Shown here: positions 14,658 through 20,011 of the stretch, piece after piece
How positions within the stretch are numbered: position 1 is the stretch's first letter
Layout: each line of letters opens with the position of its first letter
Assembly (NCBI GenBank): GCA_028866655.1
Contig: JAGWHQ010000013.1
Location: 1-42,674, forward strand
Length of the DNA: 42,674 nucleotides
Reading direction: 5' to 3'
Source of the DNA: Nitrososphaerota archaeon
GTDB taxonomy: Archaea > Thermoproteota > Nitrososphaeria > Nitrososphaerales > Nitrosopumilaceae
Notes under the pieces: model-generated
What the model was told of the DNA's origin: nothing
Databases searched by the model: none
The model's input: only the letters and a program-made list of their open reading frames with translations
Made by a program: the position numbers and the translations under genes

Positions 14658-15449
14658 TTATTTTGAAAAGAACTTGATAATTATATCTGATAGCCTCTCT
14701 GGATCTTCTATATATGGGGAATGTCCACATCCCTCCATTGGCGCAAATTCGCAGTTTTTGATTAACGAAACAAATTGTTGTGAATACTCGAAAGGTATCA
14801 GCTTGTCATCCTTGCCCCAAATAACCATTGTTGGAATATTGATTTTTTCTAGTTTATCAAAAATGTCTGGCGAATTCTTTAATCCTAAAAGTGTAGATAG
14901 GAATACCATTTTTGCATTTGGTCTTGACATGTTGTTGACAAATCGTTCAATTGATATCTCGGATACCTGCATTCCTGGACCTACCATCATTTGGTATGCG
15001 TTTTTTACCGAATCCTTGTTTGGGTATAACGCTGCCATTGTATATGCATCAAGTGTTGGAGTAGATTTTTTCATTATTCCTGCAGGAGATATGAGAATTA
15101 TTTTTTCAATTATGGGATTTTGTGCTGCAGCACACTCTGCAGTTATCTGACCTCCAAGTGATGTGCCAATAATGAACGTCTTTTTTATTGCAAGTGCTTC
15201 CATAAAATCAAAAACAAACTTTATGAAAAACTCTGGAGTGTAGTCAACTGAGGGCTTGTCACTCTGACCATATCCAATTATGTCTGGTGCGAAAATATGG
15301 TATTTTTTATTTAGGAAAGGTATTAGGTTACTCCATCTCTCTGCATATCCGCCTAGCCCATGTAGGAGAATGAGATTGCGATCAGATTGATCGCCGTCTT
15401 CCAAATATCTGATGTTATTTCTATTTAGCATGACAAATTTTTCCTTCAT
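14658..15449 (-). CDS. Alpha/beta hydrolase, candidate PHA depolymerase or esterase
   Basis: The 263-residue protein is a complete alpha/beta hydrolase. It shows HGLGG at 30-34 (oxyanion region), GTSLGG with Ser97 as nucleophile, WGKDDKLIP with Asp215, and GCGHSPYIEDP with His243 completing the triad. The family (MhpC/BphD-like) cleaves esters, thioesters or C-C bonds. No signal peptide is present. Its place between a patatin and a phasin-like gene, next to phaEC, makes intracellular depolymerase or thioesterase activity on PHA an attractive inference, but fold alone does not decide the substrate. Confidence 0.85.
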   Translation of the reverse strand: MKEKFVMLNRNNIRYLEDGDQSDRNLILLHGLGGYAERWSNLIPFLNKKYHIFAPDIIGYGQSDKPSVDYTPEFFIKFVFDFMEALAIKKTFIIGTSLGGQITAECAAAQNPIIEKIILISPAGIMKKSTPTLDAYTMAALYPNKDSVKNAYQMMVGPGMQVSEISIERFVNNMSRPNAKMVFLSTLLGLKNSPDIFDKLEKINIPTMVIWGKDDKLIPFEYSQQFVSLIKNCEFAPMEGCGHSPYIEDPERLSDIIIKFFSK

Positions 15450-15544: not shown

Positions 15545-15976
15545 TCAGATCTTTGTCATTGCAGTGGCATATTCTAACATCTTTGCATAAGATGACAGGG
15601 CAAGTTTTACATAATCATCATATGACTTCATTGCCGACATGGTATTTTCTACAAATGTCTTTTGAAGATTACTCATCATTTCTATCTCGGACACAGTAGT
15701 CTTTGTTAATATTTTGAAGTACTTGTCAAATGATTCTATTGCTTTTTGATCTACTCCCATGTTATCGAGAAACTCTTTTTCTGCGATATAGCAAGTCCCA
15801 AAAAAGTCTCTTGCAATACGCAAGCCCTCTTCCTGCAAGTCTGCAAAATTTTCAATATATGAAGGCAGTAGGCTCTCTATCTTCATTATTACTTCATTAG
15901 TATTGTCTCTCATTACATCACATACCGAAAGAGAGTGTTTGACGCTTGCTTTTTCTTGCGGTTCGATTTTTGACAT
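15545..15976 (-). CDS. Phasin-like PHA granule protein
   Basis: This 143-residue, almost wholly helical protein lacks signal peptide and membrane segments. Amphipathic stretches such as IENFADLQEEGLRIARDFF and MMSNLQKTFVENTMSAMKSY resemble phasins (PhaP), which coat polyhydroxyalkanoate granules. It is divergent from phaE, with 104 bases between the start codons and separate TATA-like boxes (TTTTAA near 16006 for this gene). Identity to known phasins is weak, so the call rests on helical pattern and location. Confidence 0.65.
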   Translation of the reverse strand: MSKIEPQEKASVKHSLSVCDVMRDNTNEVIMKIESLLPSYIENFADLQEEGLRIARDFFGTCYIAEKEFLDNMGVDQKAIESFDKYFKILTKTTVSEIEMMSNLQKTFVENTMSAMKSYDDYVKLALSSYAKMLEYATAMTKI

Positions 15977-16080: not shown

Positions 16081-16659
16081 ATGTCTATTCCACCTGACTT
16101 GAAAAAATCTCTGGCAAACTATAAACACAATTCTCTTTTTTGGACGGACTTGCTGTACTTGATGTCAAACAGGCAACAATCACTTGCTGCCACCGGACCG
16201 TTTAGAAAGTTCGCAATCAATGCCAAAACCCTGAGTACAGAAACCATTGAAATGAATGAAGATATGACAGAATTTAACACTAGGTTATCTGAATACTATA
16301 AACAACTCACTGATACATGGAATGAGGCCCAGAAAGAATACTCTAGAAAAGTACCCGAACTTCCAAATGATGTAGAACACATGGAGGCATCAAAACGTAT
16401 ATGGATTGATATATTTGAAAACTATTTTACAAGACTTTTTGATTCTGCTGAATTTGCAGAGAACTTTGGTCAACTGGTATCCAGTGAACTTGAGATTGCC
16501 AAACACTGGAACAACATGGCGTCCACATTGCTTGAAAGTGCAAACATGCCTACAAAGAAGGAGATGGATGATGTGTACAAAGAATTACACTCTTTGCGAA
16601 AAAGAGTTGCCAAACTTGAAAAAATAGCAAACAAGGGAGGAACTCCAAATGGCCAATGA
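16081..16659 (+). CDS. phaE: Class III PHA synthase subunit PhaE
   Basis: The 192-residue protein is shorter than bacterial PhaE but keeps the diagnostic C-terminus: a long helix with NMPTKKEMDDVYKELHSLRKRVAKLEK, where the NxPT-(K/R)-xE-(M/L)-D pattern and coiled coil mark the PhaE family. The upstream part is helical and Trp-containing (RIWIDIFENYF), as expected. PhaE has no catalytic residues and activates PhaC in a heteromeric synthase on the granule. It overlaps phaC by 11 bases, a translational coupling that fits the stoichiometric complex. Confidence 0.88.
   Translation: MSIPPDLKKSLANYKHNSLFWTDLLYLMSNRQQSLAATGPFRKFAINAKTLSTETIEMNEDMTEFNTRLSEYYKQLTDTWNEAQKEYSRKVPELPNDVEHMEASKRIWIDIFENYFTRLFDSAEFAENFGQLVSSELEIAKHWNNMASTLLESANMPTKKEMDDVYKELHSLRKRVAKLEKIANKGGTPNGQ
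16636..16640 (+). promoter_or_regulatory. Shine-Dalgarno site of phaC
   Basis: GGAGG, 8 bases before the phaC ATG and inside the end of phaE. It marks internal re-initiation in an operon whose first gene appears leaderless. Confidence 0.5.
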
Positions 16660-17719
16660 GATTAAAGTAGATCCTCAAATGTTGGCTGAATTTATCAAAC
16701 TAAACAAGAACATATTTGAAGCGCCAAATCTTGCCAAGTCTCTTGATGAGATTAATCTTGAAATTACTCCGCACGAAGTCGTATATACTGAAGGAAAAGT
16801 TCGATTACTTCACTTCAATCCGCCAGTCCAAAAACAACTAAAGACACCACTTGTGATTGCATATGCTTTGATAAACAGATTTCATATTTTGGATATACAT
16901 CCGAAAAAGAGCTGGATAAAACATTTGCTAAATCAAGGAATAGATGTATACTTGATTGATTGGGGAACGCCAACTCAGATAAATCGGCACGAGGGATTTG
17001 ATGATTATGTTAATGGCTATATGGACAATTGTATTGATTTTGTAAGAAAAGAGACATTGTCTAATGCTGTATCTCTTCAAGGATATTGTACTGGTGGAAC
17101 ATTATCTACAGTGTATTCTGCCCTATATCCCAAGAAAATTAAGAATCTGACTCTAACTGCACCAGTGATTGATGGACGAAGAGATAGTACTGTGGTATCA
17201 AACTTGGCAAAACACATGGATGTTGACAAACTGGTAGATACTCTGGGTAACATGCCACCTGAATTGATGTATTATGTTTTTTCGATTTTAAAACCCTTTG
17301 AGCAAGGATTTGAAAAATACCTTAATTTCTTCAAAAATATTCACGACCAGGAGTATGTTGAAAACTTTATTCGAGTGGAAAAGTGGGTCTCAGATACACC
17401 ACCAATTCCAGGTGAATTGTATAGGCAGTGGATTAAGGATGTTTACCAAGAAAACCTCTTGATTGATAACAAAATGTATGTGGGCGGAAAACAGGTATCG
17501 TTAAAAAATATTTCAATGCCTTTACTTACGCAGGTTGCAGTAGGTGATCATCTGGTCTCCCCTGAATGTAGTATGCCTATTCACTATGCTGTATCAAGTG
17601 AGGATAAGACGCTCAAAATATATCCGACTGGACATGTGGGCATGATTGCAAGCTCATTTTCACAAAAAAAGGTTCTTCCAGAATATGCCCAATGGCTAGT
17701 CGAAAGATCTGAAAAATAA
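16649..17719 (+). CDS. phaC: Class III PHA synthase catalytic subunit PhaC
   Basis: The 356-residue length matches class III PhaC. The lipase-like box GYCTGG places the nucleophile at Cys147. The acid is Asp300 in VAVGDHLVSPE, and the general base is His329 in TGHVG. All three sit two residues earlier than the Cys149/Asp302/His331 triad known for the Allochromatium enzyme. The protein polymerises (R)-3-hydroxyacyl-CoA into PHA with PhaE. Carbon could come from the 3-hydroxybutyryl-CoA of the thaumarchaeal 3-hydroxypropionate/4-hydroxybutyrate cycle, though the stereochemistry would need an extra step. Convergent with the phasin gene, 19 bases away. Confidence 0.93.
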   Translation: MANEIKVDPQMLAEFIKLNKNIFEAPNLAKSLDEINLEITPHEVVYTEGKVRLLHFNPPVQKQLKTPLVIAYALINRFHILDIHPKKSWIKHLLNQGIDVYLIDWGTPTQINRHEGFDDYVNGYMDNCIDFVRKETLSNAVSLQGYCTGGTLSTVYSALYPKKIKNLTLTAPVIDGRRDSTVVSNLAKHMDVDKLVDTLGNMPPELMYYVFSILKPFEQGFEKYLNFFKNIHDQEYVENFIRVEKWVSDTPPIPGELYRQWIKDVYQENLLIDNKMYVGGKQVSLKNISMPLLTQVAVGDHLVSPECSMPIHYAVSSEDKTLKIYPTGHVGMIASSFSQKKVLPEYAQWLVERSEK

Positions 17720-17738: not shown

Positions 17739-18152
17739 CTAGTTCTTGCTTGGAGTCCATGCTGAGAACCATGACTGCAGTATGTTAGCATCCATTGTTG
17801 TGAATGCTTTTAGGTTGTCATTGAATGTCTTGATGTTTTGTCTTGCTGCTTCCATTGCTGCTAGTACTGCTTTATTTTGTACTGAACTTGTTTTCACTAT
17901 CTCATCTGTTGCATCATTAATTGCTTTGAGATAAGTTGGTGGAAGGTTTGCAGTAAAGCCGCTCTTTGTTGCTGCTTCTTGTTGGAACTCAATTGCTGTT
18001 TCTACTGCATTCTTGTATGCTGTTGCAAATTCTTGCTGTAGATTTGAGATTGCCTGGATGTATTGTGTGACATTCTTTTCTGCCTCTTCGAAATATCGAT
18101 TTACATTCTGCTTGTATATTGCGTATGTTTCTTTTGCTTCTGTCTTGCTCAT
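17739..18152 (-). CDS. Phasin-like protein, second gene of the fusion operon
   Basis: A 137-residue helical protein with heptad-like Ala/Gln/Lys-rich repeats (VTQYIQAISNLQQEFATAYKN, AVLAAMEAARQNIKTFND) and a Trp-containing end (SWFSAWTPSKN). This is the general phasin pattern. Its ATG overlaps the stop of the phasin-AbrB fusion by 4 bases (ATGA), and a near-perfect Shine-Dalgarno AGGAGGTGA precedes it, so the two are translationally coupled. The strong site suggests high expression, as expected for an abundant granule coat protein. Confidence 0.7.
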   Translation of the reverse strand: MSKTEAKETYAIYKQNVNRYFEEAEKNVTQYIQAISNLQQEFATAYKNAVETAIEFQQEAATKSGFTANLPPTYLKAINDATDEIVKTSSVQNKAVLAAMEAARQNIKTFNDNLKAFTTMDANILQSWFSAWTPSKN

Positions 18153-18568
18153 TTTTTCACCTCCTGTCGTGAATTACTTTTATGGATTGGAACTACAATC
18201 ACTTGGACCAGATCATTTTCCTTGATTCCAATTGCTTCTCTTTCTGCTTCGGGTATGGAAATTCTGCCATTACTTCCAACTGATGTCTTGAATGCACCCC
18301 ATGATGAAAATTGGGGCAAATTTTGTGCAAGATTAAACCAGTTGTACATGGCCTTTGATCCACTTTCTGCAAAAGTTTGTACAAAATCTGCTTGTGTTTT
18401 GGTGGTCTTGTCTGCCATCTCTTTTAGTGTATCCAGTGGATTTGTTTGGTTTGTACGATTCATCATATCTCCAAATGTTCGCATAAAGTCCATCTGGGCT
18501 TTACCGCTTCGTTGGATCCATTCTCTAAAGATGGCCGATGGGTCAGGTTGGTCATAGTTACCATTCAT
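18149..18568 (-). CDS. Phasin fused to an AbrB/SpoVT-type DNA-binding domain
   Basis: This 139-residue protein has two parts. Residues 1-90 are phasin-like helix (FREWIQRSGKAQMDFMRTFG, TKTQADFVQTFAESGSKAMYNW). Residues 93-129 form a swapped-hairpin AbrB domain: KTSVGSNGRISIPEAEREA followed by IGIKENDLVQVIVVPI. AbrB dimers bind DNA. In haloarchaea, an AbrB-like regulator (PhaR) is encoded next to phaP as a separate gene and represses PHA genes; here the two functions are on one chain. Granule binding could titrate the protein off DNA. It is first gene of a two-gene operon and shares its TATA box with the divergent dehydrogenase. Confidence 0.75.
   Translation of the reverse strand: MNGNYDQPDPSAIFREWIQRSGKAQMDFMRTFGDMMNRTNQTNPLDTLKEMADKTTKTQADFVQTFAESGSKAMYNWFNLAQNLPQFSSWGAFKTSVGSNGRISIPEAEREAIGIKENDLVQVIVVPIHKSNSRQEVKK
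18157..18165 (-). promoter_or_regulatory. Near-perfect Shine-Dalgarno site AGGAGGTGA
   Basis: Read on the minus strand, 4 bases from the ATG of the second phasin gene and embedded in the last codons of the fusion gene. It is the strongest ribosome binding site noticed in the window. Confidence 0.6.
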
Positions 18569-18573
18569 TGGTA

Positions 18574-18620
18574 ATGATAACCAGCCAAAGGTATATAACC
18601 GTATTGATAGGCATGATAAC
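18574..18620. promoter_or_regulatory. Shared divergent promoter with flanking ATGATAAC repeats
   Basis: A single symmetric box GGTATATAACC (TATATAA at 18592-18598) stands 27 bases from the ATG of the minus-strand fusion gene and 28 bases from the ATG of the plus-strand dehydrogenase. The octamer ATGATAAC is repeated directly on each side (18574-18581 and 18613-18620), and the left copy is part of an imperfect dyad GGTAATGATAACC (18570-18582). These are candidate operators for the AbrB domain. Confidence 0.55.
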
Positions 18621-18622
18621 TG

Positions 18623-20011
18623 ATGTTAATTAAGACAATCAATCCTGCAACTGAAGAAGTCATTGCTGAATATCAAAACATCACAGAGGCTGATCTTAAA
18701 AATAAAGTAGCAAAATCACGAGAGGCTTTTTCCAAGTGGAAGACTAATTCTAAAAACAGAGCCGTGTTTTTACACATCTTGTCTGAAAATCTTCGAAAGA
18801 ACAAAGAGTCTTTAGCAAAAGTTGCCACACAAGAGATGGGCAAGCCACTCAAAGAATCATTGGCCGAAGTAGAAAAATGTGCATGGGCCATGGAGTTTTA
18901 TGGTGACAATGGTGAAACTTTTCTAAATCCTGAAATAATCAATACGGATGCAAGAAAAAGTTTTGTTGCATTTCAGCCAATTGGAGTTATTGCAAGTATC
19001 ATGCCGTGGAACTTTCCATATTGGCAGGCATTGAGATTTGCAGCGCCATCACTTATGGCTGGAAACACAATTGTGCTAAAGCCTGCAAGCGTTACGATGC
19101 AGTGTGGAATTGAGATGGAAAAATTATTCACAAACACTGGATTTCCTGAAGGTGTATTTCAGACACTTGTCAGCAATTCCAGCATGGCTGAAAAATTGAT
19201 TGATTCTGATATTAATGCAGTAACTTTTACTGGAAGCAATGTCGTTGGCGCCAAAGTTGCACAGCGTGCAACATCACAAATCAAAAAATGTGTTTTAGAG
19301 CTTGGTGGAAGCGATCCGTTTATTGTCTGCTCTGATGCTGATGTTGAAAAAGCATCTACTGGTGCTGTAAAGGGACGATTCATCAATTGTGGCCAGAGCT
19401 GTATTGCATCAAAGAGATTCTTCGTGGTAAAAAATCTCGCAAAGGAATTCATTGAAAAGTTTGTACAAAAGGTGGAAAAACTAAACGTGGGAGACCCAAT
19501 GTCTGATACTACTGACATTGGCCCGCTTGTAAATGCTGATGGTCTTAGTAGGATCGAAGAGATGGTAAAAGACGCTGTAGCCAAAGGTGCTCAAATTCTC
19601 ACAGGAGGCAAGCGACTCAGAGACAAGGGCTATTTTTACGCACCCACAGTTTTGGACCACATCACACAAGACATGATGATGGCACATGAGGAAGTATTTG
19701 GTCCAGTAGCGCCAGTGACTATAGTTGAGGATGAAGATGAGGCAATCAGGCTTGCAAACTCTTCTCAATATGGCTTGGGTGCAAGCATATGGACCCAAAA
19801 TCTGGACAAGGCAGAAAAACTATCTGCACTGATTGATTCCGGCATGGTTGCGGTAAATAATGTACTGGTATCTGATCCAAGAATTCCATTTGGTGGTGTC
19901 AAACAAAGTGGATTTGGTAGAGAACTATCAAAATATGGCATGCTTGAATTTGTTAATGTCAAGTCTGTACGATACTATGATCAGCTGGTACAATATCATC
20001 GTGTAGAATAA
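18623..20011 (+). CDS. Aldehyde dehydrogenase, succinate-semialdehyde dehydrogenase (Sad/YneI-like)
   Basis: The 462-residue protein is a full NAD(P)-dependent aldehyde dehydrogenase. It shows MPWNFPYWQALRFAAPSLMAGN (Asn130), the FTGSNVVGA nucleotide-binding turn, general base Glu226 in LELGGSDPF and nucleophile Cys260 in NCGQSCIASKRF. The MPWNFPYWQ and GQSCIASKRF forms match the short succinate-semialdehyde dehydrogenase group. Succinic semialdehyde is an intermediate of the thaumarchaeal carbon cycle, so it may oxidise it, or the enzyme may act as a CoA-acylating relative; which is unresolved. It is divergent from the PHA granule operon and probably co-regulated. Confidence 0.85.
   Translation: MLIKTINPATEEVIAEYQNITEADLKNKVAKSREAFSKWKTNSKNRAVFLHILSENLRKNKESLAKVATQEMGKPLKESLAEVEKCAWAMEFYGDNGETFLNPEIINTDARKSFVAFQPIGVIASIMPWNFPYWQALRFAAPSLMAGNTIVLKPASVTMQCGIEMEKLFTNTGFPEGVFQTLVSNSSMAEKLIDSDINAVTFTGSNVVGAKVAQRATSQIKKCVLELGGSDPFIVCSDADVEKASTGAVKGRFINCGQSCIASKRFFVVKNLAKEFIEKFVQKVEKLNVGDPMSDTTDIGPLVNADGLSRIEEMVKDAVAKGAQILTGGKRLRDKGYFYAPTVLDHITQDMMMAHEEVFGPVAPVTIVEDEDEAIRLANSSQYGLGASIWTQNLDKAEKLSALIDSGMVAVNNVLVSDPRIPFGGVKQSGFGRELSKYGMLEFVNVKSVRYYDQLVQYHRVE

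Follow-up and report, generated by a model that had tools for sequence, protein, structure and literature searches.

Bacterial PhaR proteins of the Cupriavidus necator type are built from domains unlike the AbrB type. They act as autoregulated, PHA-binding phasin repressors, as may the archaeal protein described below, and bacterial phaR and phaP are transcribed from separate promoters (PMC9049629). Closer to our locus is the phaRP system of Haloferax mediterranei (Cai et al., 2015), taken here from passages in two reviews (PMC9049629; PMC7137286). These passages describe haloarchaeal PhaR as a protein with an AbrB-like domain at its C-terminus that represses phaRP, responds to PHA and restores or promotes PHA in the absence of PhaP, and they mention four tandem repeats in the H. 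mediterranei phaRP promoter (PMC9049629). They also place both PhaR and PhaP on PHA granules and report that phaRP activity is higher while PHA is made (PMC7137286). PHA-like granules have likewise been reported in ammonia-oxidizing archaea, with only phaE, phaC and breakdown genes named for N. maritimus (PMC11082331).

We compared these systems with a PHA locus in a 42,674-nt stretch of DNA (the whole stretch analyzed, hereafter the window) whose host genome groups with the ammonia-oxidizing archaea of Nitrosotalea, its nearest named relatives being Candidatus Nitrosotalea genomes. The gene phaR (18149..18568, minus strand) encodes a protein of 139 aa and overlaps by 4 bp, in an operon-like arrangement, a separate phasin gene, phaP (17739..18152, minus strand), whose 137-aa product has two long amphipathic helices and whose structure model found no match in the PDB. 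Convergent with this pair are phaE (16081..16659, plus strand; PF09712, E 4.5e-13) and phaC, encoding a class III PHA synthase (16649..17719, plus strand; TIGR01836, 418.8 bits), profile matches that bear out the PHA context assigned by the first-pass annotation. In haloarchaea, phaR is also the first gene of a phaR-phaP pair at a class III phaE-phaC locus, although there the pair lies upstream of phaEC rather than convergent with it.

The genome of this contig was searched and holds a single copy of phaR. Homologues of the protein are found in 124 of the 151 family genomes, and a search of 398 genomes sampled from the phylum detected PhaR only in three families of one order. Its presence agrees with that of class III PhaC in 147 of 151 genomes (both in 123, neither in 24, phaC alone in 3 and PhaR alone in 1, where absences without listed names are derived from tallies). 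The order of the genes is also kept: phaC adjoins phaR convergently in 65 of 67 loci, phaP follows phaR directly in 53 and an alpha/beta hydrolase homologue directly precedes it on the same strand in 52. phaP was absent from three tested genomes that have neither phaC nor phaR (G006, G011 and G016).

The C-terminal AbrB-type domain of the protein, placed there by the first-pass annotation and confirmed here, covers residues 93-128 (18185..18292, minus strand) with the core KTxVGSNGRISIPEAERxALxIxExDLVQVIVxP. TIGR01439 scores 29.5 bits against a cut-off of 28.3 and matches 44 of 44 aligned members. PF04014 is borderline: it matches 40 of the 44 members at E<=0.01, and its score for this protein falls just below the gathering score of 24.7 by hmmscan (23.5 bits) and just above it in the genome search (24.9). 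The PF04014 match spans only profile positions 3-32 of 48, leaving the last hairpin strand unrecognized, and the match of a haloarchaeal protein (L120) ends at the same position (32-33), suggesting that the last AbrB strand is unusual or absent. The AlphaFold monomer is of low confidence (pLDDT 55.6), and its best Foldseek matches are AbrB/SpoVT/MazE-type with E 0.4 or worse. By sequence (TIGR01439) the protein shares its domain family with the AbrB/MazE/SpoVT swapped-hairpin proteins, but it differs from them in the early end of the profile match and in a core no more than 29% identical to that of the other AbrB proteins in the compared genomes.

The same core is near-invariant among family members and 65-74% identical to that of PhaR from Haladaptatus, Haloferax larsenii and Haloarcula. 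Profile-profile comparison matches the protein to haloarchaeal PhaR with 99.5% probability (E 2.6e-23), and a haloarchaeal AbrB-domain protein of 106 aa, encoded ahead of phaE and phaC, is 34% identical to it over 86 aligned residues (E 2e-15). The class III synthase served as a lead to haloarchaeal plasmids. The sole matches with E <1e-5 in the plasmid collection are three haloarchaeal PhaR-type proteins, two of them encoded in phaR-phaP-phaE-phaC clusters; in Haladaptatus caseinilyticus and Haloferax larsenii the cluster order is AbrB-domain protein, small protein, phaE, phaC. A FastTree phylogeny of the core groups PhaR apart from other AbrB proteins, with branching inside PhaR unreliable because the core has only 31 columns. 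Taken together, the layout in common with haloarchaeal PhaR, the core identity, the profile match and the separate phasin gene next to it show that the 139-aa protein is the ammonia-oxidizing archaeal orthologue of haloarchaeal PhaR and no new kind of molecule. PhaR in ammonia-oxidizing archaea has apparently gone unreported, as no earlier report was found in the literature searched, and its presence there ties together PHA control across two distant archaeal groups.

The N-terminal half (residues 10-82; 18323..18541, minus strand) is the putative granule-binding part. Predicted helices occupy residues 10-38, 44-68 and 71-82 (AlphaFold, low confidence), and their hydrophobic moments exceed those of shuffled sequences: the mean is 0.514 versus 0.26 for residues 10-38 (p 0.011) and 0.42 versus 0.18 for residues 44-82 (0 of 2000 shuffles). 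The amphipathic moment has p<0.05 in 95% of 104 family N-termini. An internal-repeat test, in which the null score is floored and shuffling erases helix periodicity, returned a unit of about 30 residues in two copies (residues 11-40 and 45-74), a result only suggestive of a duplication. Many deeper-lineage relatives, like the haloarchaeal proteins, have shorter N-termini; the longer half found here and its possible duplication thus set it apart from haloarchaeal PhaR. Residues 1-90 had been called phasin-like. However, they matched no phasin family in Pfam/NCBIfam profile searches, a weak PF09712 match (E 0.004) appearing in one of the 44 members, and profile comparison of the N-terminal half gave probabilities of 1.3% for the neighboring phasin and 0.4% for PhaE. 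Of the likeness to phasins, amphipathic helicity alone is real, and on these comparisons we rejected homology of this half to phasins, with no sign that residues 1-90 derive from one. Homology to the haloarchaeal PhaR N-termini was likewise undetectable by profile comparison.

The start of phaR carries a TATA-like box, TTATATA (18592..18598, minus strand), located 24-30 nt before the ATG, a leaderless spacing, and conserved in the upstream alignment. From this box to codon 10 of phaR, across Nitrosopumilaceae, runs an array of ACC/GGT half-sites repeated every 10 bp, a putative PhaR operator (18540..18592, minus strand). Read on the minus strand, the half-sites are ACC (18590-18592), GGT (18580-18582), ACC (18570-18572), GGT (18560-18562), ACC (18550-18552) and CCC (18540-18542); with all starts aligned they fall at -24, -14, -4, +6, +16 and +26 relative to the first base of the ATG. 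On the same strand the palindrome TGGTTATCATTACCA (18569..18583) ends directly before the start codon, and a second palindrome, TGGTAACTATGACCA (18549..18563), lies in phaR codons 2-7 with its center 20 bp from the first. In Nitrosotalea, the 15 nt preceding the phaR ATG, downstream of the TATA box, are the palindrome TGGTWAYNATTACCA or a near variant.

Among the starts and genomes tested, the array is specific to phaR. TGGTN7ACCA occurs at only two sites in the 42.7-kb window against 0.67 expected, both of them the palindromes at phaR. The 33-bp core ACCN7GGTN7ACCN7GGT was searched in ten genomes of Nitrosotalea and occurs exactly once per genome, invariably at phaR, while its reversed control has zero matches in these genomes. 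A mean of 4.90 of the 6 half-sites is found at 61 distinct phaR starts, compared with 0.00 at phaP and 0.20 at other genes, and all other registers at phaR starts score <0.4. Inside the gene, the array is kept by synonymous codon choice, indicating selection on the DNA itself. The codon of Gly3 is GGT in 55 of 60 cases (background 25%), and all 35 codons for Asn6 are AAC (background 40% when a C follows), whereas the codon of Asn4, whose third base lies outside the half-sites, is unbiased. Fisher tests take genomes as independent, making the genus-level count the safer figure: GGT is the majority codon in 16-17 of 17 genera, one genus being a GGT/GGC tie, and AAC in 10 of 10. These codons are evidence that the array is selectively maintained. 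It is likely the autoregulatory operator of PhaR and has apparently not been reported before.

Upstream of phaR in the order's more distant relatives (loci L030, L031, L033 and L199-L207), the array was looked for and not found. In Hfx. larsenii, phaR is preceded by a row of five NCC/GGN sites spaced 10 bp apart (p 0.002), while the array is not clearly present in the phaR promoters of Haladaptatus (p 0.056) and Haloarcula (p 0.85); with one convincing promoter of three, we rejected an array common to haloarchaea in general. Repeats in the phaR promoter region are, by the review passages, a trait in common with the haloarchaeal system, but the array described here differs in running into the coding sequence.

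On the other side of the promoter, an aldehyde dehydrogenase gene (ALDH; 18623..20011, plus strand) is divergent from phaR, with TTATATA also about 24-30 nt before its start. The phaR-ALDH gap of 54 bp (18569-18622) is kept in most close Nitrosotalea loci, where one TATA-like box sits at much the same distance from either gene. In Nitrosotalea this single box may serve both genes, so the aldehyde dehydrogenase may be co-regulated with phaR. Other lineages have a hydrolase upstream of phaR in place of the aldehyde dehydrogenase.

We consider it probable that the PhaR orthologue represses phaR and phaP as an AbrB dimer on the array, and that its helices bind granules such that polymer titrates the repressor. 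A dimer formed via the C-terminal AbrB-type domain would occupy the 10-bp-periodic array from the TATA box to approximately codon 10, over the transcription and translation starts, blocking the start of transcription and repressing both genes. The amphipathic N-terminal helices would attach to the hydrophobic polymer surface. As granules grow, PhaR would be drawn onto them and the operator freed, and more phasin and PhaR would be made. Autorepression, granule location and the response to PHA would be carried over from the haloarchaeal system. The titration switch that the first-pass annotation had put forward is plausible and is essentially what the reviews report for haloarchaeal PhaR. A more tentative extension, to which we give slightly less than even weight, is that PhaR assembles cooperatively on one DNA face along six half-sites set at intervals of one helical turn, of which the final three fall within its own first ten codons; the operator and the peptide M-x-G-N-x-N-Q-Y-D-P would then co-evolve, and granules would titrate the assembly off, turning phasin on. 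If true, this would be a switch that senses polymer and whose operator also codes for protein.

Alternatively, the protein could chiefly tether granules to the nucleoid and regulate genes little. Such tethers are known in bacteria (PhaM/PhaF-like), and helices resembling polymer-binding ones next to a DNA-binding domain within one small protein would suit this role. We find it improbable nonetheless, as a specific array present once per genome, at the protein's own start, is what an autoregulator would be expected to have and a nucleoid binder would not, and the review passages describe the haloarchaeal orthologue as a repressor of phaRP (PMC9049629; PMC7137286). Somewhat less improbable, though still unlikely, is that the array serves another regulator or is an architectural promoter element, with PhaR binding elsewhere or having lost DNA binding: deeper relatives have a near-identical AbrB core and yet no array. 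Against this, the array goes with phaR alone among the starts tested, the AbrB core is near-invariant, a similar row of sites precedes phaR in Hfx. larsenii, and the tandem repeats described for H. mediterranei lie in the phaRP promoter (PMC9049629).

The original proposal of a phasin-repressor fusion has to be weighed against the same comparisons. A single 139-residue chain on the minus strand does join a helical N-terminus to an AbrB C-terminus, in a conserved open frame. The contrast drawn with haloarchaea, where the two were said to be separate proteins, fails because PhaR combines helices and an AbrB domain in both groups and PhaP is a separate gene in both. A true fusion, one molecule standing in for both proteins, would be consistent with this chain and with genera that have no phasin gene between phaR and phaC (loci L085, L091, L101, L103, L104, L107, L108, L113, L114, L054, L057 and L105), but it is very improbable given an N-terminus without profile similarity to PhaP or PhaE, the identical layout of haloarchaeal PhaR and the separate phaP that adjoins phaR here. 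Where phaP is not adjacent, as in some members of one genus and in a second genus, it lies elsewhere in the tested genomes, and replacement of the separate phasin by a fusion was rejected for these loci.

The locus offers candidates for the regulator, the phasins and the depolymerase of the PHA store, conserved across the family, and the array gives a concrete candidate operator. A gene divergent from phaE (15545..15976, minus strand), a distant paralogue of phaP by profile comparison (92%, E 6e-7), probably encodes a second phasin. The alpha/beta hydrolase gene at 14658..15449 (minus strand), with a GTSLG lipase box, is a candidate for the intracellular PHA depolymerase of the module; no such enzyme is named for N. 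maritimus in PMC11082331.

Further arrangements of PHA genes were seen among the genomes and plasmids compared. A cassette recurring on haloarchaeal plasmids (L064, L065, L066 and L070) consists of a MaoC-domain protein and phaC followed by small SHOCT-domain genes, with no annotated phaR or phaE alongside. In one genome (G023; L097 and L098) phaR lies approximately 470 kb from phaC-phaE, unlike in nearly all relatives. Several ammonia-oxidizer genomes (e.g. G106:C66, G074:C6 and G025:C3) encode a second, more distant PhaC-like protein of about 430-480 codons that scores below the class III cut-off.
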